From IMG/VR virus record IMGVR_UViG_3300028025_003971, positions 1-27,015 of that record: a stretch of 27,015 nt of DNA. The stretch is one strand, 5' to 3'. The notes under the pieces were generated by a model. It was not told where the DNA came from. It did not search any database and worked only from the letters and a program-made list of their open reading frames with translations. Each line of letters starts with the position of its first letter. Position 1 is the stretch's first letter. This document shows, piece by piece, positions 1,819 to 27,015 of this stretch. Source of the stretch: a virus. A program made the translations under genes and the position numbers.

Positions 1819-4800
1819 ATGGCTCTAAATTTTAACGTTGATCCTTACTATGATGATTTCGATGATACGAAAAACTTTCATCGAATTTTATTCAAACCAG
1901 GTAAGGCTGTACAGGCCAGAGAATTAACACAGGCACAAACGATTCTACAGGATCAGATTACTAAGTTTGCCAATAATATATTCAAAGAAAATTCTCCAGT
2001 AACTGGCGGACAAATAACAACCAATTTCAATTGTTTTTATATTAAACTACAAACCACCTACAATGGTGCAACAATTGATGTTACCGATTTTGATGGTTTA
2101 TTGTTAACCAATGCATCAGGAACAATCAAAGCCAAAGTTGTTGCAGTTGCACAACCAACAGGCACCGCAGATGAGGGTGATCCACCAACATTGATTGTTG
2201 TTTATAAATCAGGTACACGTTTCACTGACAATGACATTATCTATGATGTAAATTCTAATAAAACTTGTCAAGCAATTACAAATGGTTCAACAGGAGAATC
2301 TTCTGTAGTTTCTATTGCTAAAGGTGTTTTCTATGTTCTTGGTAACTTTGTACAAATCGAGCCAACAACAATCATATTAAGTAAGTATGACAGTACACCA
2401 TCCAAAAGGGTTGGTTTGGAAATTACTGAAACAATTTATGACTATGCAAACGATGCATCGTTGTTGGATCCTGCAGTTGGTGCATCAAACTACCAAGCAC
2501 CCGGCGCAGACAGATATGTAATCAGTCTTGATCTTACGTCAAAGCCATTGTATTTTGGTGATGACCAATTCTTCATTGAATTGCTTCGCATTGAAGATGG
2601 TAACGTTTTCAAAATGGTTGATGGTTCAGTTTATGCAGTAATCGATGACTATTTTGCAAAACGTGATTATGAAACGAATGGTGATTATATCATCAACGAT
2701 TTTACTTTGACACCAAAAATTGATCCAGATAATGATGACAATTATCTTTTGGGTGTTGGTAAAGGCCTTGCGTATGTGCATGGTTATCGTGTGGAGAATC
2801 CATCACCAATTAATTTGACGTCAAGTCGTGCAAGAACACAAGCGGAAAAGCAAAATGATACAACAGTTATAAACTATGGTAGTTATTTTATTGTGTCAAA
2901 TGTGCATGGTGCAAACTCAAAGACATTTGATGTAACATCATCAAACACAGTAGATTTTCATTGTGTTTCATCAAATAATGTACATACAGCCAACGCAACA
3001 ACCTATAATTCTACATTGGTGTCTAGAGGTTATATTCGTGGTTTAGATTATCAAAGCGCACCAACAGCCAATGCAAATACGCATATTTTCAAGGCAATGG
3101 TATATGACTTACAGAATCAAGCTTTAACCGGTACACTTGTTTCAGCAACCTCAACAGCTGTAGTTCTACCAGCAACAAACGGACAAACATCTTCATTCAA
3201 TGATGCTTATGTTGGTGTTGACATTTCAATCACAGCAGGAACAAATGCGGGTGAAACAAGAACAATCACCGCATACGTTGGCTCTACAAGAACTGCAACT
3301 GTAAATAAGTCTTGGAGTGTAACACCAGATGCTACATCAACTTTTGTACTGAATTTCAATACTGCCGATGTGGAATCTATGCTGCAAATTGATAGCAGTA
3401 ATTACACTGTATATGGCAAAGCGAAAATAGATGATACAGGAAAAGAAAATGGTTTACCTTCTGGTGATGCAATTTTCGAAAATCCAAATAAACCAGAATT
3501 AATATTTCCAATAGGCTTACCATATGTTGCTAGTATTACTGATTCATCATATACATCTTTTATAGAAATTAAAGGTGTTTCTTTCGGTGCTGCGGGCAGC
3601 ACACTGTCTGCAACATTACCATTGGATGGAAGTTATTTGGGTGTTATCAAACATATTGGCACAGAAAACACCACTCTTAGTGCAGATTTGGTTAGAGAAA
3701 ATTTCACAATCATTGTGACAAATGCACAATCTAATTCAAAGTTTGCAGCAGGTGACATTGTTAACTGGTCGGTATCTCCTAGAACAATCGCAATGAATGG
3801 TGATTTATCTGTTGCAACATTACAAACTACAACTGCTGATCTAACTGCATTTACTGCAACAATTATATTTAAAGTTGATGTGCCAGTTGCAACAAATTCA
3901 GGCTTAGTTTTAAAAATTAAAAATTTGGTCAATGCAAATGCAAACATTGTTATGGCCACTGCAGGAACACAAGTAAATACGTATACTTATGTTGATGATA
4001 GTGGTTCTTCTACTGGTCAAATTTATATACAAAATGCTGGTATTGCAAATCCAGGTGTAAAACAATCTTTATATCTTTCTGATGTAAAAAGAATTTGGAA
4101 AATTATTGATACCAAATCTTCAGGTACAACACCAATAACATCAATGTTTGATAATTCAACATATGATGTTACAAATAGATATTTGTTTGATAACGGACAA
4201 AGAGATGGTTATTATGACCATGCATCAATTACATTAAAACCTGGTGCTGCAAAGCCAGCTGGTAATTTATTGGTGTTGGTAGACTATTACAAGCACTCAG
4301 GTGGCGATGGTTATTTCAATAAAAAGTCTTATATTGATCTTTCAAATTCACCAGATGATTATAGAGAAATTCCAACATATACCAGTAAAAATGGTACAAC
4401 ATATTCATTAAGAGATTGTTTGGATTTTAGACCAGCTAGACAAAATGCCACAACAAATTTTGTTTTCCGTTATTCCAATCCATCAGACTCAAGATTTGGT
4501 TTCTTATTGCCTGTAGATTCTTCAAGTTTCATCTGTGATTACTCCTACTATCTTGGCCGTAAAGATAAATTAATTTTAACTAAAGATAAATCATTGCAGA
4601 TTATTGAAGGATCGCCTTCACTGAATCCGTTACTGCCGAATGAACCAGATGGTTGTTTAGTACTCGCAAGTATTACGCACAGACCTTTTACAAGTTACCT
4701 TCCAACGGAATTGGTATCTGGATTATCAGACTTATCTATTGAACAAACTCAACATCGCCGTTATACAATGTCGGATATTGCTGGTCTAGACAACAGGATT

Positions 4801-7800
4801 AATCGTATTGAATATTATACAGCACTTAATGTATTAGAACAAAACGCCAACTCATTGCAAATTTCTGATGCATATGGATTAAATCGATTTAAAAATGGTA
4901 TTATGGTTGATGATTTTTCTGGTTATTCAGCTTCGGATGCTAATATAACAGATTTTGGTGCATCCATTAATCGCAGAACAAAACGAATGACTGCGAGCCA
5001 AGTAGTAACAAATTATCCATTGAAAAATTTGGCTTTGGTTTATAACTTGAATAATCCATCACCAACTTACATTTCTTCTTTGAATTTTTATAGAAGTACT
5101 AATGGATTTACAAACTATTTTATGTTGCCATATACTTCAACAAATATGGCTTCACAAAAATTAGCAAGTAGAAAAGTTAATTTAAATCCTTTCTCCGTCT
5201 CAAATGCAAAAGGCACAATATCTTTATCTCCAAACGTTGATAATTGGGTTGATACGACATATTCACCTTCTTTATTGATTACTGATCCCAATTTACACAT
5301 ATGGCAAAGTTCAGACACAATAAGTACATTGAGTGCTGGCGACTGGCAAACTGTATCTGGAACAAGTACTCTGATAAAATCAACCTCTGCTGTAACAGGT
5401 AAATCTAGCAGAAATGTTCCAAATCATGGTGCTTTTGATGGTCCATTTGGTAGAAATGTTGGATATACAGAACATGTTACAGAAACAACAACAACATCAA
5501 CTTATAAAAATGTTGCTAACCAAACTCAAAATAACATATTGGGTAATTACACTCAATTGGACAATACATATTCATTAAACAACGGATATGTGACGGATAT
5601 TAGTATTCTTCCTTGGATGAGAAAACAAGAGATTGCAATTACCGCAACAAACATGTTGTATAACACTCAAGTTTTTAGTTTCTTTGATACTATCGGTGTT
5701 GATAATTATGTGAGAAAAACAAATATTATTGAATTAACTGATGTTACTGGAACATTCGAACAAAATGATGTTATTGGTTATTATTCATCTGGAACATTTA
5801 CACCAACAGGTGTTGTTATTGGAATATATGATTATCCAACCACAAACAACATGAGATTGTATGTTGCTGGTGATGGAAAAACAACCACATATCATAACTC
5901 ACTTGTACTACAAAATGCAAACTTCAATGGTGATGGTGTTTATCAAGGTAGGACAGCTTACGGAACTTTTGCTAGTCAAACACATTTTGGTGGACTAATT
6001 AGAAGTGCTAATAGTACAACTACAGTAACAATTTCTGCATTAGCAACCACCTCAAATACAACTTATGTTGGCCAAACTTTGTATATAACTTCAGGAACTG
6101 GCCAAGGATCTTCTGCAAACATTTCTTCATATAACGGAGTAACAAAACTTGTAACATTAGATACAGCTATAACTTGTGCAGCTGGTGACATTTATTCCAT
6201 TGGTACATTTACAACCAATGAAGAAGGTAGTTTCTATGGTATATTTACTGTGCCACCAAATACATTCCATACAGGCACAAGAGTGTTTCGTATGGATAAC
6301 CGTATAAATGGAAATGAAGGAACAATAACAACATTTGCAGAAGGTAGTTTCTATGCACAAGGATTGCAAACCAATAAACAAAATATTGATTTTGGTGCAT
6401 CTCCAGCTGGGGCAAAAGATACTTTCACACAAGTAAATAAAAGAGATGTAGTAACACTGTCTACACAAGCAAATGTAACTAAGAGTATTTACTATACACC
6501 ATACGATCCTGTTGCACAAACATTTATTATCGATGCAGCAAATTATCCTAATGGTGCATACATATCTTCTATTAGATTATTCTTTTCTTCAAAACCAGCA
6601 ACGGATACTGCGCCAGTAACACTTTCTATTGTTGGAACATTAAATGGATATCCAAATGGTACAACATTGGATAATTCAATCGTTACTTTACCAGCATATC
6701 AAATAAAAGTTTCCGACACACCACAATATCTAGATTCAACAACTTATACAGAATTTTTATTCGATTCACCAGTTTATATTCAGCCTGCAACACTTTACTC
6801 ATTTATCGTAAAGTCTTCTTCAAATGAATATAATTTATGGACAGCATCAAATGGTGACACAGCACTAGCATCATCAGTTAAGAATCTTTCAACTGATCCT
6901 TATCCAAGTTCAATTACAAAAATTTCCACAGCACCATATGTTGGTGCTCTGTTTATATCACAAAACTCACAAACTTGGACCGCAGATCAAAATCAAAGTA
7001 TGATGTTTACGATTGAACGTGCTAAATTTGATACAACCAAAACACCTACTATTAGAATGGTTGTTCCGAAAAAATTACCACAAAGAACATTGTTGGAAAA
7101 TAAAGTCGATTATTATAGTAATGCAAATACCATGACCAATACTATTGGAACAGTTACAAATACTGATTCGTTGATTGATGCATTTAATGTAACAACAACA
7201 GATTTTATACCATCAGCCACTTCAATTAATTATAATTATAGTGCAACATTACAGACCGGTGCTTCAACGAGTGCAGAATACATCAATCCAGGTAAATATG
7301 GAACAACAATGTATGACCACATTCATTTGGATGATAATCAGGGTGAAAGATTGTTGAGTGCAAATTCAGACACATCATTCTCATTGTATGCACAATTATC
7401 TTCAACCGATGATGCTGTGTCTCCTGTGGTGTCTGATGCAGGAACATCTTTATTTGCAATACAATACAATATTAATAATTGTGAATTATCAAACAGTTTA
7501 ATTTCAATTGTTTCTGGCGGCACTCAATATGCTACAGGTAACACAACAGTTTCTATTTCTGCACCAACAGGTGAAAACGGACAACAAGCTTATGCAACAC
7601 CAGTTATCGTTGGTGGTGTAATTACAGAAATTAATTTTACAAATACAGGTTCAGGATACATTGAGACTCCAACTGTTTCAATTAATGTTTCTGGAGGTTC
7701 CGCATCAGGTGCATCCGCAATTATTGCTGGAGAAACATCAAAAAATGGCGGACCAGCAGCAACACGTTATATAACTAAGAAAGTCGTACTAGATGCAGGA

Positions 7801-14111: not shown

Positions 14112-14393
14112 ATGAAATACTACAAAGATTTACAAAATAACATATATGCATATGAACTAGATGGTTCTCAAGATGATACTATTCCCAGTGGTTTTATTCA
14201 AATTAATGCCGATGAGATGCAACGTTTATTAGATGAGGCAGAACAAACCAGATTGTCTCAACTATCATACACAGAGAAACGAATTGGTGAATATCCTTCT
14301 ATTTCCGAACAATTAGACATATTGTATCATAATGGTTTTGATACATGGAAAAGTGAAATTAAGAAAATCAAAGACAAATACCCAAAATCTTAA
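14112..14393 (+). CDS. Small fibre-assembly-chaperone-like protein
   Basis: A 93-residue, charged, Cys-free protein with Shine-Dalgarno AAGGA 6 bases before the ATG, starting 9 bp after the second fibre. The N-terminal half (YYKDLQNNIYAYE, then FIQINADEMQRLLDEAE) resembles small tail-fibre-assembly proteins that begin with a short beta part and continue as helix. The C-terminal half (KRIGEYPSISEQLDILYHNG, then WKSEIKKIKDKYPK) is a motif, YPxIxxQLDxLYH...IKxKYPK, that I have seen in many small phage proteins encoded beside tail fibres and annotated as hypothetical or assembly chaperones. Its position directly after a fibre lacking its own chaperone fits a helper role, analogous in place to T4 gp38 or Tfa proteins, though no sequence relation to those is claimed. 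It ends the first fibre block; hairpins follow. Confidence 0.7.
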   Translation: MKYYKDLQNNIYAYELDGSQDDTIPSGFIQINADEMQRLLDEAEQTRLSQLSYTEKRIGEYPSISEQLDILYHNGFDTWKSEIKKIKDKYPKS

Positions 14394-14863: not shown

Positions 14864-15397
14864 ATGCCAACCGTAACTGTTAGACAACCAGCAACCGTAA
14901 AAGTTAGAGTTGAAGGCCAGAAAACTAAAGTACAGACATTATCCTATGGCACCAAAACACTTAGGAGTCTTACTGACCTTTCTTTGGAAGGTGCAAACAC
15001 TGGTGATGTAATTGTCTATAACTCACAAACCAAAACTTTCTCAACTAAAGGCCTTGGTGCTGATACTCCTGTACACGGTAATTTATTACCAACAGCATCT
15101 AGACAATTTGACCTTGGTAGCAGAACAAATAAATTCCGAAGTCTATATCTAAGTGGTAACACAATTGATTTGGATGGCACAGTTATTAAAGCTGATGAAG
15201 CCTCTGGTTCAATATCTTTTGCAGCACGACCTACTGAGGCACAGCCAAATCCAGTCGCTATTGTTGTGTCTCCTATTGGTGGTTTTGTACCTGTTCAAAC
15301 TGTTGCTGGTGTAATTCCAGAAGCAGCAATTCAGGCCGCAATAGCAAATTCAGTAACGTATTTGGCTTTCCAAGGTGCTGATTCAGGTTTCTTTTAA
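14864..15397 (+). CDS. Virion/fibre protein with LGS...FRSLYLSGN motif
   Basis: A 177-residue protein, Shine-Dalgarno AAGGA 5 bases before the ATG and 9 bp after the previous stop. It opens with a basic beta segment (TVTVRQPATVKVRVEGQKTK). In the middle is FDLGSRTNKFRSLYLSGNTI at about residues 83-102, a phrase found again and again in fibre proteins of aquatic phages, where it forms one turn of a repetitive beta shaft; here there is a single copy. The C-terminus (YLAFQGADSGFF) resembles the DGGxF ends of three neighbouring proteins. The next ORF begins directly at the base after its stop (TAAATG), so the two are translationally coupled. It is probably a short fibre or adaptor; the exact role is unknown. 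Confidence 0.65.
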   Translation: MPTVTVRQPATVKVRVEGQKTKVQTLSYGTKTLRSLTDLSLEGANTGDVIVYNSQTKTFSTKGLGADTPVHGNLLPTASRQFDLGSRTNKFRSLYLSGNTIDLDGTVIKADEASGSISFAARPTEAQPNPVAIVVSPIGGFVPVQTVAGVIPEAAIQAAIANSVTYLAFQGADSGFF

Positions 15398-15610
15398 ATG
15401 GCAAATACATCAATACAAATTCTCCGTTCGTATGCGAACACAACACCTCTATCATTAGCTGACGGAGAATTAGCGTATTCTTTTAAATCCAACACACTTT
15501 TCATTGGAAATACCACCAATCATGTGATACCGATTGGTGGTTTAGGTTATATCGAACAAGTTCCGGGTCCAGTCATAGAAAATAGTAGTTTTGACGGTGG
15601 CACATTTTAA
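15398..15610 (+). CDS. Stand-alone GELAYS-module protein
   Basis: A 70-residue protein that consists of little more than the N-terminal module of two larger fibres: MANTSIQILRSYANTTPL then GELAYSFKSNTLFIGN and IPIGG. The remaining 20 or so residues end in SSFDGGTF, sharing the DGGxF C-terminal motif with the 640-residue fibre and the coiled-coil protein. It starts on the base after the previous stop, with only a poor Shine-Dalgarno, so coupling is likely. Possible roles are a cap, an adaptor docking on the same virion site as the longer fibres, or a remnant of a fibre that lost its shaft. The frame is intact and the codon usage like that of the neighbours, which argues against a decayed gene. 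Confidence 0.7.
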   Translation: MANTSIQILRSYANTTPLSLADGELAYSFKSNTLFIGNTTNHVIPIGGLGYIEQVPGPVIENSSFDGGTF

Positions 15611-15616
15611 TAAATA
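15609..15616 (+). promoter_or_regulatory. T4-type late promoter
   Basis: AATAAATA overlaps the stop of the 70-residue protein gene and lies 42 bp upstream of the 640-residue fibre start, with a good ribosome site (AAGGA, 15646-15650) between. It is a one-base variant of TATAAATA and shares AATAAATAGA with the box at 19283. Confidence 0.55.
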
Positions 15617-15623
15617 GATCATA

Positions 15624-15635
15624 GGATTTAAATCC
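15624..15635 (+). promoter_or_regulatory. 12-bp palindrome in the predicted 5' leader
   Basis: GGATTTAAATCC is a perfect palindrome immediately after the expected start of transcription from the box at 15609. In RNA it could form a four-pair hairpin with a TTAA loop at the 5' end of the message, or it could be a protein-binding site. No function is known. Confidence 0.35.
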
Positions 15636-15657
15636 AACTAACAAAAAGGATAACAAC

Positions 15658-17580
15658 ATGTCAGGCGCAAATACCTCATTAAGAATTAAACGTTCCACCA
15701 CCACAGGCGTACCAGGTAGCCTGCAAGCCGGTGAATTAGCATATTCATATCAATCCAATACCATGTTTATTGGTTCACCTGCTGGTACAGGTGTTGTTAA
15801 TATCGGTGGTTTATATTACACATCAACAATTGATGCTGCAACCAGTGCAAATACTGTAGGTACACTTGTTAAACGTGATGCTGCAGGTAATATCTTTGTT
15901 GGCCACGCAAACGTTAGAAGTATTAGTTTTTCTGATGGTGGTGTATTAAGTACTGGTGCTTTCTCAGGTAATGCAAACTCTGCAACACAATTCCAGACAG
16001 ACAGATATATTAATGTTACTGGTGGTGACATTACTGCTTCTGCACAATTGTTTAATGGTACTGCAAATGCAACATTAAGTGCTGCACTAAATTCAATTGC
16101 TGGTCTTACTCCTGGTACATATGGTGGTTCAACAGTTATACCTATCATCCAGGTAGCCGCAAACGGTCGTGTTATGACGATTGCCAATTCGTCAACAATT
16201 TCAACTGCATTGACTGTTGCAGCTGATTCTGGTACAGCTGATGTTGTTAATCTAGCAACCGACACATTTACAATTGCTGGTGGTGCAGGCCTTACATCAA
16301 CTGTAACAGATAATACAGTTACTATTGATGTTGATAACACAGTTGTTCGTGCAAATACACCAAGTTTAAGACAAACAATTGATGGTGACGTTATCATCAG
16401 TGGTAACTTGTCCATCTTAGGTACATCAACAACATACAACGTTGAAACACTTACTGTTGAAGACTCATTGATTGCACTTGGTAAAAACAATGCATCTGAT
16501 GCAGTCGATATTGGTTTCTATGGCCACTACAATAATGGTGCAGACCGTCATGCAGGTTTGATGCGTCATGCTGGTGATGGTTTCTTCTATTTGTTTGACA
16601 ATTATAACGTAGAACCAACAGGTAACGTAATTAACGTTTCTGATGGAAGTTTCCGTCAAGCAAACTTGAAATCAAATTTGATTTCACAATGGGCAAATGC
16701 AACAGTATTACAAGTTGGTACATTGAATGTTGCAGGTGCAACAACACTTAAATCATTAAGTTTAACTGATGATTTAACAGTATCTAACGGTGGTACTGGT
16801 GCAAGTTCATTCACTGCTGGCGGAATTGTCATTGGTGACGGCACAGATTCATTAAAAGTGCTTGCTAACAGTTCATTTACTCCAACAGGTACTGGCGCAC
16901 AAAATAATACCATTACTTCTGTAACTGTTGATGCATATGGTAGAACAACTGCTGCAACATTCCAAGCAATTTCTGGTCTAAATGTTGACCAAGGTGGTAC
17001 AGGTAAATCTACTTTTGCTTCAGGTAAAGTTGTTGTTGGTAATGGCACAGGTGCTTTGTCTGAACTTGCAAACGTTACTTACACACTGACTGGTTCATTA
17101 AGTGCATCTAAAACAATTACATCATTGACTGTAGATGATTATGGTCGTGTAAGTGCTGCAACAGCAGCAGACATTTCTGGCCTAACTGTTACACAAGGCG
17201 GTACTGGTGTAAATACATTCACTAGCGGATTGATGTTGATTGGTAATGGCACAGGTGCAATTCAGTCTATTGCTAATGCTGGATATACATTAACTGGTAC
17301 ACTAGGTGCTGCAAAAACAATCACATCTTTGACTGTTGATGCTTACGGACGTGTAACAGCGGCAACTGCTGGTGACATTTCTGGTCTATCAGTTGCACAA
17401 GGCGGTACAGGTGCAGCAACATTCACTGCAAAGGGTATCGTATACGGTGATGGAACAAATGCATTGGCTGTTACAGCTGCATCTGGTTCAGCCGATCAAA
17501 CATGGTCTAATCAAATTCTTACAGTTACCAATGCAGGTGTGCCAGTGTGGTCATCAGCAATAGACGGAGGACAATTCTAA
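15658..17580 (+). CDS. Tail fibre with GELAYS module, LG/GHYN beta domain and four QGGTG repeats
   Basis: A 640-residue fibre. Residues 1-51 are the GELAYS module (GELAYSYQSNTMFIGS, NIGG). Residues 50-240 form a beta-rich region (VKRDAAGNIFVGHANV, LTPGTYGGSTVIPIIQV). Residues 242-341 are a domain that recurs twice in the 1334-residue fibre (VIISGNLSILGTST, IALGKNNASDAVDIGF, GHYNNGADRHAGLMRHAGDG). From residue 373 come four units with an exact 68-residue period (QGGTGxxTF ... GNGTGA ... SLTVDAYGRVTAAT), the last incomplete, ending in WSSAIDGGQF. No chaperone domain is visible. Shine-Dalgarno AAGGA is 7 bases before the ATG and a late promoter lies upstream. QGGTG and VDAYGR repeats are usual in trimeric fibre shafts; the N-terminal module probably docks to the virion. 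Confidence 0.82.
   Translation: MSGANTSLRIKRSTTTGVPGSLQAGELAYSYQSNTMFIGSPAGTGVVNIGGLYYTSTIDAATSANTVGTLVKRDAAGNIFVGHANVRSISFSDGGVLSTGAFSGNANSATQFQTDRYINVTGGDITASAQLFNGTANATLSAALNSIAGLTPGTYGGSTVIPIIQVAANGRVMTIANSSTISTALTVAADSGTADVVNLATDTFTIAGGAGLTSTVTDNTVTIDVDNTVVRANTPSLRQTIDGDVIISGNLSILGTSTTYNVETLTVEDSLIALGKNNASDAVDIGFYGHYNNGADRHAGLMRHAGDGFFYLFDNYNVEPTGNVINVSDGSFRQANLKSNLISQWANATVLQVGTLNVAGATTLKSLSLTDDLTVSNGGTGASSFTAGGIVIGDGTDSLKVLANSSFTPTGTGAQNNTITSVTVDAYGRTTAATFQAISGLNVDQGGTGKSTFASGKVVVGNGTGALSELANVTYTLTGSLSASKTITSLTVDDYGRVSAATAADISGLTVTQGGTGVNTFTSGLMLIGNGTGAIQSIANAGYTLTGTLGAAKTITSLTVDAYGRVTAATAGDISGLSVAQGGTGAATFTAKGIVYGDGTNALAVTAASGSADQTWSNQILTVTNAGVPVWSSAIDGGQF
16774..17580 (+). repeat. 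204-bp tandem repeats (68-residue QGGTG/VDAYGR units)
   Basis: Unit starts are 16774, 16978, 17182 and 17386, exactly 204 bp apart; the fourth is cut to 195 bp by the stop. DNA copies differ mostly at third codon positions while protein motifs (GGTG, GDGT/GNGTGA, SLTVDAYGRV, DISGL) are kept. Confidence 0.9.
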
Positions 17581-17588
17581 GCTGACTA

Positions 17589-17594
17589 TATAAT
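17589..17594 (+). promoter_or_regulatory. Possible -10 box before the coiled-coil gene
   Basis: TATAAT matches the sigma-70 -10 consensus 31 bp before the ribosome-site-bearing start at 17626 (AGGAG at 17615-17619). No acceptable -35 hexamer is seen at the normal distance, so this is weak; it could also be a divergent phage promoter. Confidence 0.25.
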
Positions 17595-17625
17595 GTAATA
17601 CATTTTTTTATGATAGGAGTTTGAT

Positions 17626-18348
17626 ATGGCAAATGATAAGTATTTAAATTATTATGTTGAGACTTTGACAACCACAATGACAGATTGCGTGGTTCGAAAT
17701 ATCTCAATGCAAGCAAATGCAAAAATAACTGATGAAGTTGTGAAAGAACAGTCGGAAAAGATTGATGCGTTGGTAAAAATTAATGGAGATTTACAAAATA
17801 CCGTTAAAGAATTGCAAGAAACTAACGCATCAAATGAAAGTACGACTGTTCAAGAACTAAAAAATAAATTGTTAGAAAGTGAAAAACTTGTAACAAAATT
17901 AGGTAACGATATTAACGAATCAAATAGTAAACATCGTACCGAAATTGATGAATTGACTAGTAAGTTTCGTGATTATGATAGTGTTAAGAATCAAGCTGTT
18001 CATGTGGAAACATTTAAAGGTGAATTGGTTAGAGCAAGAGAAGAAACCAATCAAGTTCGTTCAGAATTTGAAGGTAAAATCAATGCTCTTGCATCTGAAA
18101 ATACCGGAAAAATTAATGCTTTAATTGAACAAAATGATAAAACAGTTAAAGAATTGATTCAGAAACACGAAACTGAAAAAAGTGAATATAATAATAAAAT
18201 AGATGAATTAATTGCTAAAATTGATTACTTGCAACTACCTCCTGCCAAAAGAAAAAAAATTGATGAGCTAAATAAAGAAGTGGTACCAACAACCTTAACC
18301 GGTTTAATTGATACTGATGGCCCAATCAAGGATGGCGGATCGTTCTAA
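17626..18348 (+). CDS. Coiled-coil virion-associated protein with DGGSF C-terminus
   Basis: A 240-residue protein, start fixed by AGGAG 6 bases before the ATG. Residues 1-45 (NDKYLNYYVETLTTTMTDCV, then NISMQANAKITDEVVKEQ) form a conserved head that I recall from hypothetical proteins of marine T4-like phages. Residues 45-215 are almost entirely charged helix (KIDALVKINGDLQNTVKELQ ... EKSEYNNKIDELIAKIDYLQ), a long predicted coiled coil, interrupted by a basic PPAKRKKID. The end, TDGPIKDGGSF, shares the DGGxF tag with two beta-rich proteins encoded nearby although the rest is unrelated. It stands between two fibre genes that both carry the GELAYS module, so a fibre-holding, collar/whisker-like or assembly role is plausible but unproven. 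The single Cys is near residue 21. Confidence 0.7.
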   Translation: MANDKYLNYYVETLTTTMTDCVVRNISMQANAKITDEVVKEQSEKIDALVKINGDLQNTVKELQETNASNESTTVQELKNKLLESEKLVTKLGNDINESNSKHRTEIDELTSKFRDYDSVKNQAVHVETFKGELVRAREETNQVRSEFEGKINALASENTGKINALIEQNDKTVKELIQKHETEKSEYNNKIDELIAKIDYLQLPPAKRKKIDELNKEVVPTTLTGLIDTDGPIKDGGSF

Positions 18349-18352
18349 GTAA

Positions 18353-19279
18353 ATGTCAAATACAGCAATAAAGTTAAAGAAATCAGGCGTCACAGGAAAC
18401 ACACCAACAGGCTTGGCTAATGGTGAGTTGGCGTTAAATTTTGCCGATGGTAAGCTGTATTACAAAAACAGTCTTGGTGGAACATCATACATTTCCAACC
18501 AATTTTCTTTTGACACAATCAATGCTAATAGTTCCTTAATATTAGCCACAAGTGGTTCAGACACATTGTCTTTTGTTGCTGGTAACAATATTACTATCAG
18601 CACGAATACAACTACAAAAACAATCACAATCAATTCAACATCAGGTGGTGATCCTAGCTTCGCTTTTGATAAAGCGAACGCAGCATTTAACAAAGCGAAC
18701 AGCGCACTTGCTAACACTAATGGTGCCACATTCCAAGGTCAATTGAATATTACAGGAACACTTAGAGCTCTAACTCAAGGTGGAGATGAAGGTGGTGAAA
18801 TATTCTTAGACAAAGCAGAAACCAATACAACTTTGTCCGCTGGTGTAACAATTGACGTTTATCAAAATAAACTTAGAATTTTTGAAACTGGTGGTTCTGT
18901 TCGTGGTGCATATATTGACTTGTCTGCTGCAGGCGCAGGTGTTAGTAGCGATTTGTTATCTGGTGGGGGTGGTACAGTAGATACTACAGCAAGAGTAAGT
19001 GCAGCTGCAGCATTCTTACAAGCTAATTCAGCCTTCATTGCAGCAAACTCCGCATACGGCGCACAAAATACCACAGGTACATACGCAAACTCTGCATTTT
19101 CTTTCGCAAATGGTGCATTTATAGCTGCTAACTCAGCATCCAACTTTGCAAACAGTGCATTTGCGGCAGCCAACATTGCATACATTCATGCAAATGCGGC
19201 CTTCAATAAGGCAAATACTGGTACAACCGCACTTGATGTAAACGCCGATATTGTTGCATTTACAATCGCCTTTAGTTGA
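18353..19279 (+). CDS. Short fibre with GELA-type module and Ala/Asn heptads
   Basis: A 308-residue protein starting 4 bp after the coiled-coil gene, with no good Shine-Dalgarno, so coupling is likely. Residues 1-46 are a diverged copy of the GELAYS module (GELALNFADGKLYYKN). Then a beta part (SFVAGNNITISTNTTTKTIT), a short heptad piece (FDKANAAFNKANSALANTNG), a central beta domain at about 125-200 (GQLNITGTLRALTQGG, EIFLDKAETNTTLSAG, AYIDLSAAGAG), and from about residue 224 to 288 an almost perfect run of A-N-x-A-x-x-x heptads (ANSAFSFANGAFIAANSASN). It ends with VNADIVAFTIAFS, a short hydrophobic tail like the end of the 1334-residue fibre. It looks like a miniature of that fibre carrying the N-terminal module of the 640-residue one. 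Confidence 0.75.
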   Translation: MSNTAIKLKKSGVTGNTPTGLANGELALNFADGKLYYKNSLGGTSYISNQFSFDTINANSSLILATSGSDTLSFVAGNNITISTNTTTKTITINSTSGGDPSFAFDKANAAFNKANSALANTNGATFQGQLNITGTLRALTQGGDEGGEIFLDKAETNTTLSAGVTIDVYQNKLRIFETGGSVRGAYIDLSAAGAGVSSDLLSGGGGTVDTTARVSAAAAFLQANSAFIAANSAYGAQNTTGTYANSAFSFANGAFIAANSASNFANSAFAAANIAYIHANAAFNKANTGTTALDVNADIVAFTIAFS

Positions 19280-19636: not shown

Positions 19637-22600
19637 ATGCAATTTACTTATATTGGCAACCAATCAAATAAAGATGTAAGGATAGCTGGTTCATTTGCCA
19701 ATGGTGCATTTGTAACTGCTAACTCAGCAGCCTCATTTGCCAATGGTGCTTTTGATAGGGCTAATGCTGCATATAATGCTGCAAATACCAGCAGTACAGA
19801 TTCATATGCAAGAAATACAGCTAATGCTGCATTTGTTACTGCAAATTTGGCATACAATACCATATTTACCAGTAACAATACTGCGGCTTTATATTACATA
19901 ACGAGAAACTTTACTGGTGATGGTAACACCAATACATTTTCAATTTCATCCAATACATCAGCAAACAGTATTCTTGTATTTGATAATGGTATTACACAAA
20001 ATCCAATAGTTGATTATAGTGTATCAGGAAACAATATTATTTTTGTGGATGCTCCGGCAAATGGAACAATAATACAGATACGTGAATTGTTAAGTAATGT
20101 TCCAGTAGTTACGGACAATTCCAATTCGGCATTCGATAGAGCTAATGCTGCATATGCAACTGCTAATGCAGCTTTCAATGCGGCAAATACTGGTAGTTCT
20201 AGTACAGATTCATATGCAAGAAATACAGCTAATGCTGCATTTGTAACTGCTAACTCAGCAGCCTCATTTGCCAATGGTGCATTCGATAGAGCCAATGCGG
20301 CCTATAATGCCGCCAATACAGCTACCGATCCATGGGTAAGAACTCAAGCAAACAATGCTTACGATGCAGCCAATTCATCTGGATCATTTGCTAATGGTTC
20401 TTTCGTTACAGCCAACGCAGCAGCCACTTTCGCTAATAGTGCATTTGATAGAGCTAACGCAGGATACAATGCAGCAAACTCAGCAGCCGCATTTGCTAAT
20501 GGTGCTTTCACAACAGCCAATTTAAAATTCAACTCATCTGGTGGCACAATTTCTGGTGATGTTTCTATCACAGGTAACCTAAGTGTACTAGGTAATACAT
20601 TCAGTACCAGTGCCACACAGATTGTTGCTAATGATACTCTGTTTATTATGGGAACAGGAAATTATTCTGGTGATGTACTTGATATTGGTTTTGTTGCACA
20701 CTATAATAATGGCGCCAATGCACATACTGGATTGATAAGAGATTCTGGTACCAAAGAATGGCAACTGTTTGAAGAATATACTCCAGAAGTTGGTTCAAAC
20801 AACAATATTAACATTACGGATGCATCATTCAAAATATCAACGTTAAATGCAAATGTAAAATCAACAACTATATTGATAAAAAATATTGATGTATTGCCTT
20901 ACATAAACAATGCATATGCAGCTGCAAATTCTGGTGCATCATTTGCTAATGGTGCTTTTGATAGAGCCAATGCAAGTTATGGTGTAGCAAATACAGGTTC
21001 TAGTTTTGCCAATGGTGCTTTTTTAACAGCTAATAGTGGGGCATCTTTTGCCAACGGTGCATTTGTAACCGCCAACTCAGCATCGTTGTTTGCCAATGGT
21101 GCTTTTATAGGGGCAAATTCTTCTTTCGCTGCAGCTAATTCCGCAAGTCTATATGCCAATGCAGCTTTCGATAGAACCAATGCAGCATTTGCTGTAGCAA
21201 ACTCAGCCGCATCTTTTGCTAATGGTGCTTTCAGTTCTTCTAATTCAGCTTCTAGTTACGCAAACGCATCATTTGGTGCAGCTAATTCCGCAAGTTTGTA
21301 TGCTAATGCTGCATTCGCTGCAGCAAATTCTGGTTCAAGTGCTACATCAGCGTTTAATCAAGCCAACGCAGCCTTTGCTCAGGCCAATGCCGCTTATGCA
21401 CAAGCTAATACTGGTGGTTCTAGTACAGATACATATGCCAGAAGTACAGCAAATGCAGCCTTTAGTAAAGCCAATTTAGCTTATGATACAATTGTTACTT
21501 CCAGCAACACAGCGGCACTATATTACATAACGAGAAACTTTACTGGTGATGGTAACACCAATACATTTTCAATTTCATCCAATACAACCGCTAATAGTAT
21601 TCTTGTTTTTGATAATGGTATTACACAAAATCCAATAACGGACTATAGTGTATCAGGAACTACTTTAACATTTGTTGAGGCGCCAGCAACTGGAACAATA
21701 ATACAGATACGTGAATTGTTAAGTAATGTTCCAGTAGTTACGGACAATTCCAATTCGGCATTCGATAGAGCTAATGCAGCATTCATCCAAGCCAATGCAG
21801 TCTTTAGTCAATCTAATAATCAAGTATGGCCACAAGCGAATGCTGCGTTTGATGCTGCAAATTCAGCAAGTTCTTATGCTAATGCTGCATTCGCTGCAGC
21901 AAATTCTGGTTCAAGCGCTACATCAGCGTTTAATCAAGCCAATGGAGCTTTCGACACAGCCAACTCTGCATCTTTGTATGCTAACGGAGCTTTCTTAGCA
22001 TCCAATACTGCTGATGGTAAAGCTATAAGTGCTAGTTTATATGCCAACGGAGCATTTATTGCAGCAAATACTGCTGATGGTAAAGCTATAAGTGCTAGTT
22101 TATATGCTAATGGTGCCTTTACGTCTGCTAATACTGCTGATAGTAAAGCTATAAGTGCTAGTTTATATGCTAATGGTGCTTTTGATGTAGCCAACTCCAC
22201 ATCATCTTTTGCTACCGGTGCTTTTATCAAGGCTAATTCTGCAAATGTGTTGGCGCAAGCTTCATTTGACAAAGCCAATTCAGCAGCTCTTTTTGCTAAC
22301 GGCGCTTTTGAATCAGCCAATTTAAAATTTAATACATCTGGTGGTACAATTTCTGGCGATGTTTCCATCACAGGCAACTTGAGTGTATTGGGTAACACAT
22401 TTAGTACAAGTTCAACACAAATTGTTGCAAATGATACTCTGTTTATTATGGGTACCGGAAATTACACCGGCGACATTTTAGATATTGGTTTTGCAGCACA
22501 TTATAACAATGGCACCAATGCACACACTGGTCTAATCAGAGATTCTGGTACCAAAGAATGGCAGTTGTTTGAAGAATACACACCTGAAATTGGTGGTGAT

Positions 22601-23641
22601 AACAATATCAATATTAATGATGCATCATTTAAGATTGCAACACTTAATGCAAATGTAAAATCAACTACAATAACAATTAAAGGTATTGATGTATTGCCTT
22701 ATGTGAACAGTGCATTTGGTGCAGCCAACTCTGCTGGAACATATGCTAACGGAGCGTTTAGTTCTTCCAATTCAGTATCTAGTTACGCAAACAGTGCGTT
22801 TATACAATCTAATTCTGCATTTGGTTCATCCAATTCAGCTAGTCTGTACGCTAATGGTGCATTTATCCAAGCAAACTCAGTTTACAACCAATCAAATAAT
22901 TTTGTTTGGCCACAAGCAAATGCTGCTTTCAATGCATCCAATTCAGCCAGTTCATATGCCAACTCTGCATTTGCAACAGCCAATACGGCTGACGATAAAG
23001 CAACCAGTGCTGGCCTATATGCCAACGGTGCTTTTGGTTCATCCAATTCTGCAAGTTCTTATGCAAATGCAGCCTTTGCACAAGCCAATGCGGCCTTTGC
23101 ACAAGCAAACACCGGCGGTGGCGGTGGTACAACAGACCAGTACGCACGAAATACAGCAAATGCTGCATTTGTAACAGCCAATTTAGCTTATAACACAATT
23201 GTTATCGCTAGTAATAGTGCATCAATTTATTATACAAGCAGAAACTTTACAGGTGATGGAAATACAAACACATTTACAATATCTGCTAACACAACAGCAA
23301 ATAGTATTCTTGTATTTGATAATGGTATTACACAAAATCCAATAGTTGATTATAGTGTATCAGGAACTACGTTAACATTTGTAGAAGCTCCAGCAAATGG
23401 ATCAATAATTCAAGTACGTGAATTGTTAAGTAATGTTCCAGTGGTTACAGAAAAGGCCAATTTAGCTTTTGATAGAGCTAATGCTGCGTTTGCAGCTGCA
23501 AACACTGGCGGATCGGATACATATGCTAGAGACACCGCAAATGCTGCATTCATTCAGGCCAATGCAGCATTCTCACAAGCAAATACAGGCGGCACATCAT
23601 TATCAAAGGCAATTGCAATGTCAATTGTTTTTGGATTCTAA
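19637..23641 (+). CDS. Giant Ala/Asn-heptad fibre with duplicated beta domains
   Basis: A 1334-residue protein starting 1 bp after the previous stop without a clear Shine-Dalgarno, so coupled. It alternates helical Ala/Asn heptads (A-N-x-A-x-x-x, as in ANGAFDRANAAYNAAN) with two kinds of beta domain. Type I (NFTGDGNTNTFSI, SILVFDNGITQNPI, DYSVSG, EAPATGTIIQIREL) lies at about residues 86-158, 629-701 and 1198-1270. Type II (GGTISGDVSITGNLSVLGN, DIGFVAHYNNGANAHTGLIR, EWQLFEEYTP) lies at about 302-424 and 902-1024, exactly 600 residues apart. The order is heptads-I-heptads-II-heptads-I-heptads-II-heptads-I-heptads, so the protein looks internally duplicated. It ends SKAIAMSIVFGF. The helical parts could form an alanine-packed trimeric bundle, the beta domains knobs along it. 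No enzyme motif or chaperone domain was found. Best read as a long, knobbed tail fibre. Confidence 0.8.
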   Translation: MQFTYIGNQSNKDVRIAGSFANGAFVTANSAASFANGAFDRANAAYNAANTSSTDSYARNTANAAFVTANLAYNTIFTSNNTAALYYITRNFTGDGNTNTFSISSNTSANSILVFDNGITQNPIVDYSVSGNNIIFVDAPANGTIIQIRELLSNVPVVTDNSNSAFDRANAAYATANAAFNAANTGSSSTDSYARNTANAAFVTANSAASFANGAFDRANAAYNAANTATDPWVRTQANNAYDAANSSGSFANGSFVTANAAATFANSAFDRANAGYNAANSAAAFANGAFTTANLKFNSSGGTISGDVSITGNLSVLGNTFSTSATQIVANDTLFIMGTGNYSGDVLDIGFVAHYNNGANAHTGLIRDSGTKEWQLFEEYTPEVGSNNNINITDASFKISTLNANVKSTTILIKNIDVLPYINNAYAAANSGASFANGAFDRANASYGVANTGSSFANGAFLTANSGASFANGAFVTANSASLFANGAFIGANSSFAAANSASLYANAAFDRTNAAFAVANSAASFANGAFSSSNSASSYANASFGAANSASLYANAAFAAANSGSSATSAFNQANAAFAQANAAYAQANTGGSSTDTYARSTANAAFSKANLAYDTIVTSSNTAALYYITRNFTGDGNTNTFSISSNTTANSILVFDNGITQNPITDYSVSGTTLTFVEAPATGTIIQIRELLSNVPVVTDNSNSAFDRANAAFIQANAVFSQSNNQVWPQANAAFDAANSASSYANAAFAAANSGSSATSAFNQANGAFDTANSASLYANGAFLASNTADGKAISASLYANGAFIAANTADGKAISASLYANGAFTSANTADSKAISASLYANGAFDVANSTSSFATGAFIKANSANVLAQASFDKANSAALFANGAFESANLKFNTSGGTISGDVSITGNLSVLGNTFSTSSTQIVANDTLFIMGTGNYTGDILDIGFAAHYNNGTNAHTGLIRDSGTKEWQLFEEYTPEIGGDNNININDASFKIATLNANVKSTTITIKGIDVLPYVNSAFGAANSAGTYANGAFSSSNSVSSYANSAFIQSNSAFGSSNSASLYANGAFIQANSVYNQSNNFVWPQANAAFNASNSASSYANSAFATANTADDKATSAGLYANGAFGSSNSASSYANAAFAQANAAFAQANTGGGGGTTDQYARNTANAAFVTANLAYNTIVIASNSASIYYTSRNFTGDGNTNTFTISANTTANSILVFDNGITQNPIVDYSVSGTTLTFVEAPANGSIIQVRELLSNVPVVTEKANLAFDRANAAFAAANTGGSDTYARDTANAAFIQANAAFSQANTGGTSLSKAIAMSIVFGF
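19890..20148 (+). repeat. Type I beta-domain repeat, copy 1 of 3
   Basis: It recurs in frame at +1629 bp (21519-21777) and +3336 bp (23226-23484). Against copy 2 it is identical at 19890-19957 (68 bp) and 20062-20148 (87 bp); against copy 3 it is identical at 19967-20030 (64 bp). The blocks do not overlap. Confidence 0.85.
20522..20910 (+). repeat. Type II beta-domain repeat, copy 1 of 2 in this gene
   Basis: The same domain recurs at 22322-22710, exactly 1800 bp downstream, with many synonymous differences. A more distant third copy is coded at about 16381-16680 in the 640-residue fibre. Confidence 0.85.
21519..21777 (+). repeat. Type I beta-domain repeat, copy 2 of 3
   Basis: Shares long identical DNA blocks with copy 1 at its two ends, but its middle (a TTTTTGATAATGG variant and ATAACGGACTATAG) differs from copies 1 and 3; it shares the TTLTFVEAP coding segment with copy 3. 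Confidence 0.8.
22010..22198 (+). repeat. 63-bp tandem repeat, three copies
   Basis: Units of 21 residues (ADGKAISASLYANGAFIAAN type) start at 22010, 22073 and 22136. The GCTATAAGTGCTAGTTTATA core is unchanged in all three, indicating a recent local expansion. Confidence 0.85.
22322..22710 (+). repeat. Type II beta-domain repeat, copy 2 of 2 in this gene
   Basis: Paired with 20522-20910 at a distance of 1800 bp. The protein sequence is nearly kept while third positions have drifted, so this duplication is older than the identical blocks of the type I repeat or escaped homogenisation. Confidence 0.85.
23226..23484 (+). repeat. Type I beta-domain repeat, copy 3 of 3
   Basis: Identical to copy 1 over 64 bp in the middle (23303-23366) but divergent from it at both ends, the reverse of the pattern between copies 1 and 2. 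Confidence 0.8.
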
Positions 23642-23650
23642 GGATTTAAA

Positions 23651-24010
23651 ATGGCAAACCCAAACATAGCAGCACTAACAACAATTAATGGAAATACACA
23701 AGTACAATCGGTAACAACATCAGCGACTTCGATTGCAAACAATCCTTCATCTAGTGGTAAAATATTAAAAATCAATTCGTTAATTATTTCCAATATTCAT
23801 GCAACTAGTGCGGCAGATATAACCGTTGATTTGTATAGAAGTGCAACTGCATATAGATTGGTTAGTACGATTTCAGTTGCAGCAGATACATCTTTTACAG
23901 CCATTGACAAAACACTTTCCATTTATTTGTTGGAAGGTGATGAATTGAGATTGACAGCAGGAACTAACAGTGTATTACAAGCCGTGTGTTCGTTTGAGGA
24001 GATCAGCTGA
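23651..24010 (+). CDS. Small beta-rich virion protein, paralogue of the protein at 19309
   Basis: A 119-residue protein with Shine-Dalgarno AAGGA overlapping the stop of the giant fibre. It begins ANPNIAALTTINGNTQVQSV, continues with NSLIISNIHATSAADITVDL and YRSATAYRLVSTISVAADTS, and closes with LEGDELRLTAGTNSVLQAVC and SFEEIS. The layout (first strand, ISN turn, ADxTVDLY, a strand ending in ADTS, EGDxLRLTA, final SFEEI) matches the protein at 19309 at low identity; I regard both as members of one small all-beta virion family common in marine myoviruses. Its leader also resembles that of the other copy. Its last bases contain GAGGAG, the ribosome site of the next gene, whose ATG overlaps its stop. 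Likely a virion decoration or fibre-attachment protein; not proven. Confidence 0.72.
   Translation: MANPNIAALTTINGNTQVQSVTTSATSIANNPSSSGKILKINSLIISNIHATSAADITVDLYRSATAYRLVSTISVAADTSFTAIDKTLSIYLLEGDELRLTAGTNSVLQAVCSFEEIS
23996..24001 (+). promoter_or_regulatory. Ribosome-binding site fixing the start of the LamG adhesin
   Basis: GAGGAG stands 8 bases before the ATG at 24010, which itself overlaps the previous stop (TGATG). It decides this start for a gene that is open at the window edge. Confidence 0.75.
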
Positions 24011-27000
24011 TGTTTAATGCCGGTGTTAGAGGCAAAAGAGCAAAAGATACAACAGGCCTTATTACAGTTGGTGAACATTTTAATCAACAACAATTTTTAA
24101 TACCTACTGTTACCCGTTTTGCGGTAACTGATGGCTCGTATGTTGACACAAATGATACCGCAGCAAACACAGTAGGTGGCCAAACAATCGTTTTGTATGG
24201 GTCAGGTTTCGCACCAGGTGCAACCGTTTTGGTTGGGTCTACTACGATAGGCGCAGTAACATTCCTGGATTCTGGTCGTTTAACATTCAGTTCTCCTGCA
24301 TTAGGTTCTGGTAGTTATACCGTTTTTGTTACCAATGCAAATGGTGGTACTGGTATTCTTGTTCCAGGTTTAGTTTATTCTGGTGTACCAACATTTACAA
24401 CAGCAGCTGGTTCATTGGGTAATGTGTATGAAACAACTGCAATCAATACAACAGTTGTTGCAACCGGTGATGAACCGATTACATATGCTTTATCTTCTGG
24501 TTCTTTGCCTTCAGGATCAACACTAAGTTCTGGTGGTACAATTTCAGGTACTGCACCTGTTGATGGTTCAAGTACAACATATTCATTTACAATACAAGCA
24601 TCTGATGCACAAAATCAAGATTCTGTTCGTTCATTTTCTCTTACAATCAACACAGATGTTGTTTCATTCTCATCACCAGCAAATAATACATCATATAATT
24701 TAACACAAAACTATAATATATCAAACGTAATAGTTACTGCAACTTCTGCGGCCGGTTATGGTGTATTGTACACATCAAGTGGATTGCCAACTGGTCTATC
24801 AATGAACACCTCTACAGGTATAATTTCTGGTACACCAACTATTCTTGCAAGTAATGCATCAATTATAACTGCAACCGCAAATACAACAAATAGAACTGCG
24901 GCACTATATTTGAACTGGACTATTAATCTTCCTGGTGACTTGTTTTGGAAATATGCTTCATTGTTATTGAGTGCAAATTCTGCGCCAAACGGAAACACTT
25001 TTAATACAGATTTAAGTACAATTAATAATGAAGTTGTGGTTACTGGAGACATAAGGCCAAGTGAATTTAATCCTTTTAAAGAAGGATATTACAGTAACAA
25101 TTTTGATGGTACTGGAGATTATTTAAGTTCAAATAATACAGGATATGCTTTTGGTACAGGCGACTTTACTATTGAATCATGGATCTATAGAACAGATACT
25201 GGAGTTCAACGAGCCATTGTTGACACCCGAGGTGGTGCCAGTAATGTTGGTGTGTTATTTTATATTACTACTAATAATAAATTAAATTTATTTGATGGTA
25301 CAACTGTTTGGTTAACCAGCAACAACACAATTTCAGCAAATCAGTGGGTGCATGTGGCGGCCGCAAGGTCTTCCGGAACAACTAAATTGTTTATTAACGG
25401 AACACAAGAAGCATCCGGTGCTGATGCTAAAACATATACAAGTGGTCCGAGTGGATTATATATTGGTAGACAATTTGGTAGCACTACTAATGATTGGGCA
25501 GGGTTTATTAGTAATTTAAGAATTATTAAAGGTAACGCATTATATACTGCGAATAACACACCAAGTACTACACCATTAACATATGTGGCCAATACTATAT
25601 TGTTAACGTGTCAATCTAATAAACTGATTGATAATTCAAATAATAATAGCACAATCACAAAAAACGGTGACACAAGAGTTAGTCCATTTGTTCCGTTTGA
25701 CGGTACACCAAAAACATTCACTGTACCTGGTGCAGATAATTACGGTATGTATTTTGATGGCACCGGGGATTATTTAACAGTTCCTAGTAATGCTAATTTA
25801 AATTTTGGTACAGGTAGTTTTACGGTAGAATTTTGGTGGTACCCAGCTTCAATTGCAACGGATCAAGGATTTTTGGGAGGCGACAGTGGATCCTACGATT
25901 TTTGTTGGAGAACATCTACTGGTTTCAATATAGGAAGAATTGCTACAGCATTTGATAATCAATTTGCTTTTACTCCTGCCGTTAATACTTGGTATCATGT
26001 AGCATACTGCCGTTCAGGAACTAGCATAAGAGTATTTGTTAATGGGGCACAAGTTGGTACCACTATTACAAATTCAAATTCCTATAATACGAATGGTAAT
26101 GGCTTAATTGTAGGTGGCTCTACATCATCTGCTCGTTTGATGACCGGATATATTAGTAACCTTCGTATAATTAAAGGCACCGCATTATATACAGGATCCA
26201 CATTAACTGTGCCAACTGAGCCACTAACAGCAATTGCCAACACCAGCTTATTGACCTGTCAAGCAAACACGGTAATTGACAAATCAACCAATGCATTTAC
26301 GATAACTACAACCGGTAATGCAGGGCCATCAAGAAACGGACCTTTTGCAAACACAACAACAGTTGATTTAGTTGGCAATGAAGGATCAGCATACTTTGAT
26401 GGCACTGGAGATTATTTAAGTATTGCAAATAATTCTGATTTTTCTTTAAGTGCTAGAAGTTATACAATTGAATTTTGGGTATATTGGAATAATTTGTCGG
26501 GTGAACAAGTTTTAGTTGAACGTTTTAGTGCTCCAAGTGGTCCAGGATATACATTTTATAAAAACGGATCAAATCAAATTTCTTTATATGGTTCTAGTAC
26601 TGTAGTAACAGGCACTACTGTGGTAACTACTAATACCTGGTATCATATTGCGCTAAGTTATAATGGAACAACTACACGTTTATTTGTTAACGGAACACTA
26701 GATGCGAGTGCTAATGCAAACCTTACAGACGGAGGTACTTCACTAATTATAGGTTCTCGTACCGGAGCAAGTGCCTTTTTTAATGGTTATATGTCTAATT
26801 TACGAATTGTTAAAGGCACCGCATTATACACAACACCTTTTGTTCCTACTTGGGCACCACTGACACCTGTGGCCAACACAGTATTGTTGACAACACAAAC
26901 AAATTCATCTTCAAATACAAAAGTGTTTGTTGATGAAAGTAATTTCAACAACATAATTACACCAACTGGAAATACAGCGTTAGGCACATTCACTCCATTT

Positions 27001-27015
27001 GGTTCTACATGGAGT
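24010..27015 (+). CDS. Adhesin with IPT/TIG, Ig-like and tandem LamG lectin-like domains (3' end outside window)
   Basis: The frame is open from ATG 24010 to the last base (1002 codons) with no stop, so the C-terminus is missing. Residues 1-33 are a basic head (MFNAGVRGKRAKDTTGLITV). Residues 34-125 look like an IPT/TIG domain (GGQTIVLYGSGFAPGATVLV, then VTNANGGTG). Residues 126-215 and 217-307 are two putative Ig-like (He_PIG type) domains with SGSLPSGSTLSSGGTISGTA and SGLPTGLSMNTSTGIISGTP. Then come three LamG/concanavalin-like units beginning at residues 365, 582 and 796, each with FDGTGDYL, an FTxExW strand, WxHxAxxR/WYHIALSY, LFxNG and a closing GxxSNLRIxKGxALYT. LamG folds bind sugars or proteins, so this is probably a receptor- or glycan-binding tail protein. 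The last visible residues are the linker that precedes each LamG unit, so a fourth unit probably follows. Confidence 0.85.
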   Translation, partial: MFNAGVRGKRAKDTTGLITVGEHFNQQQFLIPTVTRFAVTDGSYVDTNDTAANTVGGQTIVLYGSGFAPGATVLVGSTTIGAVTFLDSGRLTFSSPALGSGSYTVFVTNANGGTGILVPGLVYSGVPTFTTAAGSLGNVYETTAINTTVVATGDEPITYALSSGSLPSGSTLSSGGTISGTAPVDGSSTTYSFTIQASDAQNQDSVRSFSLTINTDVVSFSSPANNTSYNLTQNYNISNVIVTATSAAGYGVLYTSSGLPTGLSMNTSTGIISGTPTILASNASIITATANTTNRTAALYLNWTINLPGDLFWKYASLLLSANSAPNGNTFNTDLSTINNEVVVTGDIRPSEFNPFKEGYYSNNFDGTGDYLSSNNTGYAFGTGDFTIESWIYRTDTGVQRAIVDTRGGASNVGVLFYITTNNKLNLFDGTTVWLTSNNTISANQWVHVAAARSSGTTKLFINGTQEASGADAKTYTSGPSGLYIGRQFGSTTNDWAGFISNLRIIKGNALYTANNTPSTTPLTYVANTILLTCQSNKLIDNSNNNSTITKNGDTRVSPFVPFDGTPKTFTVPGADNYGMYFDGTGDYLTVPSNANLNFGTGSFTVEFWWYPASIATDQGFLGGDSGSYDFCWRTSTGFNIGRIATAFDNQFAFTPAVNTWYHVAYCRSGTSIRVFVNGAQVGTTITNSNSYNTNGNGLIVGGSTSSARLMTGYISNLRIIKGTALYTGSTLTVPTEPLTAIANTSLLTCQANTVIDKSTNAFTITTTGNAGPSRNGPFANTTTVDLVGNEGSAYFDGTGDYLSIANNSDFSLSARSYTIEFWVYWNNLSGEQVLVERFSAPSGPGYTFYKNGSNQISLYGSSTVVTGTTVVTTNTWYHIALSYNGTTTRLFVNGTLDASANANLTDGGTSLIIGSRTGASAFFNGYMSNLRIVKGTALYTTPFVPTWAPLTPVANTVLLTTQTNSSSNTKVFVDESNFNNIITPTGNTALGTFTPFGSTWS
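25102..27015 (+). repeat. Tandem LamG-unit repeat (about 215 codons each)
   Basis: FDGTGDYL starts at 25102, 25753 and 26395, distances of 651 and 642 bp. The closing SNLRI(I/V)KG segment is at 25510, 26155 and 26794. The units are related at protein level with moderate DNA similarity. Confidence 0.85.

Follow-up and report, generated by a model that had tools for sequence, protein, structure and literature searches.

A recurrent C-terminal DGG-x-F/Y peptide on phage fibre proteins as a candidate docking tag

C-terminal tags in a viral fibre operon

The window analysed here, the 27-kb virus record IMGVR_UViG_3300028025_003971 at its full length of 27,015 nucleotides (nt), contains a fibre operon in which three proteins, a 70-amino-acid (aa) plug, a 640-aa beta fibre and a 240-aa coiled-coil protein, end in DGGxF, and a fourth, a 177-aa adaptor, ends in the variant GADSGFF. 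The ends and the protein lengths are all as given in an original prediction that was made from the sequence alone. This C-terminal tag is real and occurs far more widely than in the window. We consider it probable that DGG-x-F/Y acts as a short C-terminal docking peptide by which multi-protein phage fibres are joined in series from their parts, the following part receiving it with a small N-terminal beta domain, here termed the KRS-GELA domain. The coupler was defined as D-[G/A/S/C]-G-x-F/Y at the extreme C-terminus, a definition that the window proteins fit, and no further DGGxF-stop was found in the window in any of the six frames.

Enrichment and conservation of the tag

Peptide patterns without the tag were used to gather relatives of the coiled-coil protein and of the 640-aa fibre from viral contigs. 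Among these tag-blind relatives, 157 of 1013 unique open reading frames (ORFs) ended in DGGxF, against 3.4 expected from the position-wise composition of the ends, and at the 120 loci listed for a scrambled control pattern (GGTGATGG..TTTTAA) such ends were present in 0 of 1594 unique ORFs (0.02 expected). In the scan with the tag pattern itself, real tagged ORF ends were present at 96 of the 120 loci listed, compared with real ORF ends, mostly of one family, at 31 of the 120 loci listed for the control; 120 loci were listed for each scan, and the absolute counts are not comparable between them. Chance or low-complexity ends were ruled out as an explanation by this control. The control pattern (GDGxF-stop, L233-L352) mostly matched one widespread family of about 207 aa, MKEQPNYYAIISAEVRYDKNL...HRHQKGGDYGDGKF, which has a conserved C-terminus of its own.

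Conservation of the tag column in an alignment of rows chosen by the pattern is a selection effect, and the valid test is the count among homologues found by homology alone. By this measure a D.G.[FY] end was present in 43 of 43 homologues of the adaptor, which places this fourth protein in the same series as the other three, and D173, G175 and F177 were invariant in the adaptor alignment (24 rows). The strict DGGxF end was found in 58 of 60 homologues of the coiled-coil protein, in which the 20 residues preceding the tag are poorly conserved, and in 30 of 42 homologues of the plug, the remainder ending mostly in DGG or DAG-x-F-S. For the 640-aa fibre, 64 tag-blind homologues carried strict DGGxF; its untagged matches look like other repeat-sharing fibres, from which they were not formally separated. 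The tag was present in 0 of 50 homologues of the immunoglobulin (Ig)-like anchor that starts the module, and in 2 of 90 homologues of the 308-aa terminal fibre, leaving 88/90 untagged.

Among the matches listed, 285 unique ORFs carried DGG at positions -5 to -3, and the last residue was F (276) or Y (9) in all of them (285/285), x being mostly T, S, Q or N. These 285 distinct tagged proteins fell into 28 sequence clusters once the tag was removed. The tag codons GAYGGNGGN vary freely, in 20 combinations, the stop codons vary as well, and the distance from the tagged ORF to the next gene ranges from -1 to 293 nt. As codons and gap lengths vary, selection therefore acts on the peptide. A signal in the DNA or RNA, such as a ribosome binding site or a coupling element for the next fibre gene with the peptide incidental to it, might be considered from the resemblance of GGNGG to a Shine-Dalgarno sequence and from the way in which the tag predicts the next gene, but synonymous codons, stop codons and spacing all vary while the last position requires F or Y. 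This alternative was rejected on the codon, stop and spacing variation, and we give it next to no credence. The original prediction, that unrelated proteins here carry a functional linear motif at the C-terminus, is thus strongly supported by retention in tag-blind homologues, by the 28 clusters and by free codon variation; it had named a lack of enrichment, or loss of the tag from homologues, as grounds against it, and enrichment and retention were found.

Dependence on the following gene

In the recurring gene order, an untagged Ig-like anchor, present in most modules, is followed by a tagged adaptor, one or two tagged KRS-GELA fibres, an optional coiled coil with or without the tag, and an untagged KRS-GELA tip. 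A tip test took no account of the tag: the 49-residue N-domain of one tip served as the query and gave 80 loci. Among the unique tips there, 48 had a gene before them, and the protein directly preceding the tip had a strict DGGx[FY] end in 43 cases, was a variant in 1 and a DCGT[FY] protein in 2, while none of these tips was tagged itself (0/48); the 48 loci are mutually related and do not amount to 48 independent events. In bacterial genomes, too, a tagged protein lay before the tip at nearly every locus where the tip was preceded by a gene. Within the same loci, the next gene encoded a KRS-GELA protein for 97 of 164 tagged ORFs versus 72 of 663 untagged ORFs (odds ratio 12, Fisher p 2e-36), and in a second set for 57/101 versus 23/889 (odds ratio 49, Fisher p 7e-46), both p values being inflated because the rows are related and not phylogenetically independent. 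For fibres whose N-domain is related to this one yet distinct from it (RRD type, from S-WAM1), the tag stood upstream in 0 of 34 loci. Exactly one tagged non-acceptor starter was present in 108 of 111 modules; the equality of tag and acceptor counts (108/111) is partly built into module delimitation, and only the presence of exactly one adaptor is informative.

The residue x differed between adaptors and fibres. Among 35 dereplicated adaptor-fibre pairs, x was N in 19 adaptors and in 0 fibres, and T in 24 fibres; x therefore marks the junction. Where the gene after an M-fibre was a tagged non-M gene, as the coiled-coil gene is in the window, the M-fibre tag had x = Q in 40 of 58 cases. At fused junctions, where an acceptor domain is internal, DGGxF was looked for ahead of that domain, and none was found.

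The original prediction had suggested a common partner, chaperone or scaffold for the tag. Its functional end held up, and the partner has to be reconsidered: because the tag depends on the following gene, the last protein is untagged and x depends on the junction, the data favour the next protein in the chain, by way of its shared N-domain type. All tags might instead bind one shared partner, which could be the Ig-like anchor, a chaperone of the fibre or a scaffold bringing the parts together at assembly. In keeping with this, an anchor is present in most modules, and the tag is also carried by coiled coils and by two non-fibre families without an adjoining acceptor gene; these two stray families would be accounted for better than by serial docking. 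The dependence of the tag on which N-domain comes next, the untagged tips and the differences in x between junctions within one phage argue against such a partner, which we regard as unlikely.

Structure of the proposed acceptor domain

The near-invariant positions of the KRS-GELA domain are K9, S11, P18, G24, E25 and A27. In the AlphaFold2 (AF2) model of the 70-aa plug, residues 10-47 form ordered beta strands, and the tag is disordered (predicted local distance difference test score, pLDDT, <50) and not docked on the N-domain of the same protein. The isolated N-domain of the 308-aa protein was modelled with a pLDDT of 92. Its best VIA-align match was the N-terminal domain of a streptococcal phage hyaluronidase (6x3m residues 4-60) at a low Z of 4.1 (root-mean-square deviation, rmsd, 2.9; 51 aligned), followed by a weak match to the N-terminal domain of Mtd (1yu0; VIA Z 3.6, rmsd 3.1, 45 aligned residues), and its structural neighbours also included collagen XV/XVIII trimerisation domains. 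These fold matches of a predicted model hint at a trimer-type fibre head and are not proof of one. Searches of PDB sequences with the fibre and with the acceptor profile gave no relatives.

The plug scored 14.6 bits (E 0.033) against Pfam Mtd_N (PF18454), below the gathering score of 26.3, and the Ig-like anchor 17.9 bits (E 0.005) against Pfam LtfC (PF23926), under the gathering score of 27. Since these scores are below the cut-offs, the KRS-GELA domain and the anchor were not assigned to Mtd_N and LtfC. The anchor matched phrog_3304, annotated 'L-shaped tail fiber protein assembly', with E 7e-18 over residues 7-111 of 113.

The tag could also be an intramolecular C-terminal cap that sets the register or nucleates the folding of non-final trimers without contacting the next protein. 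Tags are located at trimer-prone fibre ends, and in at least one tip the C-terminus is formed by a different cap, an S74 chaperone domain (tip L195:10216-11640 of the pattern set, C-terminal Peptidase_S74, 22.5 bits against a cut-off of 22). However, the tag is also carried by short adaptors and helical coiled coils that otherwise share nothing, it is disordered in the plug model, and a cap leaves the link to the N-domain type of the following gene unexplained. We find this even less plausible than a shared partner.

Distribution and tagged families outside fibre operons

Fibres, short adaptors and coiled coils make up the 28 clusters, together with two families that are not encoded in fibre operons. 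The 23 tag-bearing whole contigs carried 1-4 tags each, mostly in one operon, and a reversed control pattern gave nearly zero. Cultured phages with the tag are the Synechococcus phages S-B43, S-B05, DSL-LC02 and S-CBS2 (72 kb), close variants occur in Methylophilales phage Melnitz, and prophage-like loci with the tag are present in bacterial genomes, including Limnohabitans MMS-10A-192 and Salinihabitans flavidus. No tag was found in S-WAM1, P-TIM40 and S-CREM1, cyanophages that share only repeats with the fibre of the window. At one locus (L117), the gene after the ORF 3077-4930 (-) is a 257-aa ORF directly following a tagged fibre; by eye it has a GIY-YIG-like start (YVYIWFDKKHKRYYIGSHWG), and it may be a homing endonuclease that has inserted into the module.

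The first of the two non-fibre families consists of proteins of about 310-455 aa (around 340) with N-terminal membrane-like segments, encoded between genes for a T4-type DNA polymerase and a UvsX-like recombinase and ending in LDGG[DK]F or similar; the homologues in the isolates Mosig, XacN1, immuto, SCTP-2 and Mel-JY01 have no tag. The second comprises tagged coiled coils of 66-82 aa (around 70), encoded close to an RNaseH-like gene and far from fibre genes, in most cases immediately upstream of a conserved 'MSRPKPT' gene. Both families may bind the same N-domains during assembly.

Genomic context of the window

The left part of the window encodes proteins resembling the gp8-type baseplate wedge and the adjoining large structural protein of T4-like cyanophages, in the same order as in those phages. 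The coordinates of the module are given in Table 1. Upstream of the anchor, a 93-aa ORF (14112-14393) matched phrog_9114 (E 1e-15) and, weakly, phrog_188, a tail fibre assembly family. The region 19637-23641 encodes a 1334-aa protein with degenerate 'ASLYANGAFxxAN' repeats and several duplicated blocks, likely another repeat-rich fibre. A long protein that runs past the window end (24010-27015) contains three 'FDGTGDYL...' repeats resembling, by appearance, LamG/concanavalin-like lectin domains. A 1472-aa protein of the window, outside the module, matched Peptidase_S74 with 31.3 bits.

Table 1. Features of the fibre module in the window, and loci of the two tagged families outside fibre operons
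Feature	Position or loci	Strand	Remarks
Ig-like anchor, 113 aa	14513..14854	+	Untagged; module start; related to the T5 p132 collar / LtfC group
Adaptor, 177 aa	14864..15397	+	Ends GADSGFF; 43/43 homologues D.G.[FY]
Tag variant DSGFF	15380..15394	+	Adaptor C-terminus
Plug, 70 aa	15398..15610	+	N-terminal KRS-GELA-type beta domain (about residues 1-50), then a flexible linker and the tag; ends ENSSFDGGTF
Tag DGGTF	15593..15607	+	Plug C-terminus
Beta fibre, 640 aa	15658..17580	+	KRS-GELA domain at 15658-15813; ends SSAIDGGQF
Tag DGGQF	17563..17577	+	C-terminus of 640-aa fibre
Coiled-coil protein, 240 aa	17626..18348	+	Ends GPIKDGGSF
Tag DGGSF	18331..18345	+	C-terminus of coiled-coil protein
Next fibre / tip-type protein, 308 aa	18353..19279	+	KRS-GELA N-domain 18353-18508; no tag, ends VAFTIAFS
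Membrane-segment tagged family	L120, L123, L135, L186, L200, L218, L223, L539-L541
Small tagged coiled coils	L115, L125, L132, L138, L182, L191, L193, L206, L210, L231

Comparison with known systems

PDZ ligands and docking-domain peptides are familiar examples of short flexible C-terminal peptides that end in a hydrophobic residue and are recognised by folded domains. By analogy, the tag would work in a similar way, with the differences that its motif is phage-specific and that the proposed acceptor is an N-terminal beta domain of a fibre. Serial fibres built from several gene products that are encoded together are known as well, as in the long tail fibre of T4, for which we know of no shared short C-terminal peptide. 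The neck fibre of A-1(L) is likewise built from several gene products in series (gp82-gp81-gp80), encoded together, with no shared short C-terminal peptide described and with gp80 and gp81 not modelled (PMC10966104).

The tail tip complex of T5 includes both the collar protein p132 and the side tail fibres pb1, and both are missing from fibreless T5 (PMC11313276). An Ig protein (phrog_3304) of the p132/LtfC-like kind involved in the attachment of these fibres also opens the tagged modules, but unlike in the modules here, neither a C-terminal DGGxF tag nor a chain of tagged adaptors is described for T5 in that study. Mtd (PF18454) is matched weakly by the plug in sequence and, again weakly, by the acceptor domain in fold. 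The gene upstream of mtd in BPP-1 was considered as a precedent and rejected, Bbp9 ending in LGGIA and not in DGGxF. The likeness to the HylP-type hyaluronidase fibre of streptococcal phages is the low-Z fold match of the acceptor domain, with no evidence of a tag system in HylP.

Discussion

In the arrangement that we favour, an Ig-like protein of the p132/LtfC type would anchor the module, the adaptor would come next, then one or two fibre segments and sometimes a small coiled coil, and last the tip or distal fibre. A flexible tag would end every non-final part and be received by the KRS-GELA domain, a small, trimer-type beta domain at the start of the following fibre part, either by inserting into it or by adding to it. 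The residue x and the residue before D would tune which junction forms, and the final fibre would need no tag. Physical binding, the trimeric state, the binding surface and the presence of the parts in virions are what we infer here.

Several observations weigh against docking in series. In the pattern-selected set, 22 of 46 modules with room had no acceptor within three genes; about 13 of these 22 belong to the two non-fibre families and the others mostly run off their contigs. The tags of these two families, in T4-like contigs, are not explained by serial docking alone. The coiled coil breaks a simple order of tag and next domain, S-B43 has two tagged adaptors, and no tag precedes mtd in Bordetella phage BPP-1, whose Mtd is genuine. 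Finally, fold matches at Z of about 4 are within the range of common arrangements and low for so small a domain.

Multi-protein fibres were already known, and what appears new is a short C-terminal coupler that many unrelated adaptors share and in which one residue depends on the junction. The original prediction knew of no description of such a tag, and likewise no description of it, or of such a phage C-terminal motif, was found in the open-access literature searched, a scope that did not take in subscription papers and bioRxiv preprints. More tentatively, and with somewhat less than even confidence, we suggest that DGG-x-F/Y is a widespread, previously unnamed coupler in aquatic myophages, siphophages and prophages, in which x would serve as a junction code and segments could be exchanged by recombination, the code being borrowed by a phage membrane protein and by small coiled coils that maybe act on fibre assembly.

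Phage fibre genes evolve fast and are hard to annotate. A five-residue end that marks non-final segments would let the order of fibre parts be read from metagenome sequence, and it would reveal adaptors that are invisible to profiles and predict which segments belong together. The tag would also offer a concrete, small interface for studying the modular assembly of phage fibres.

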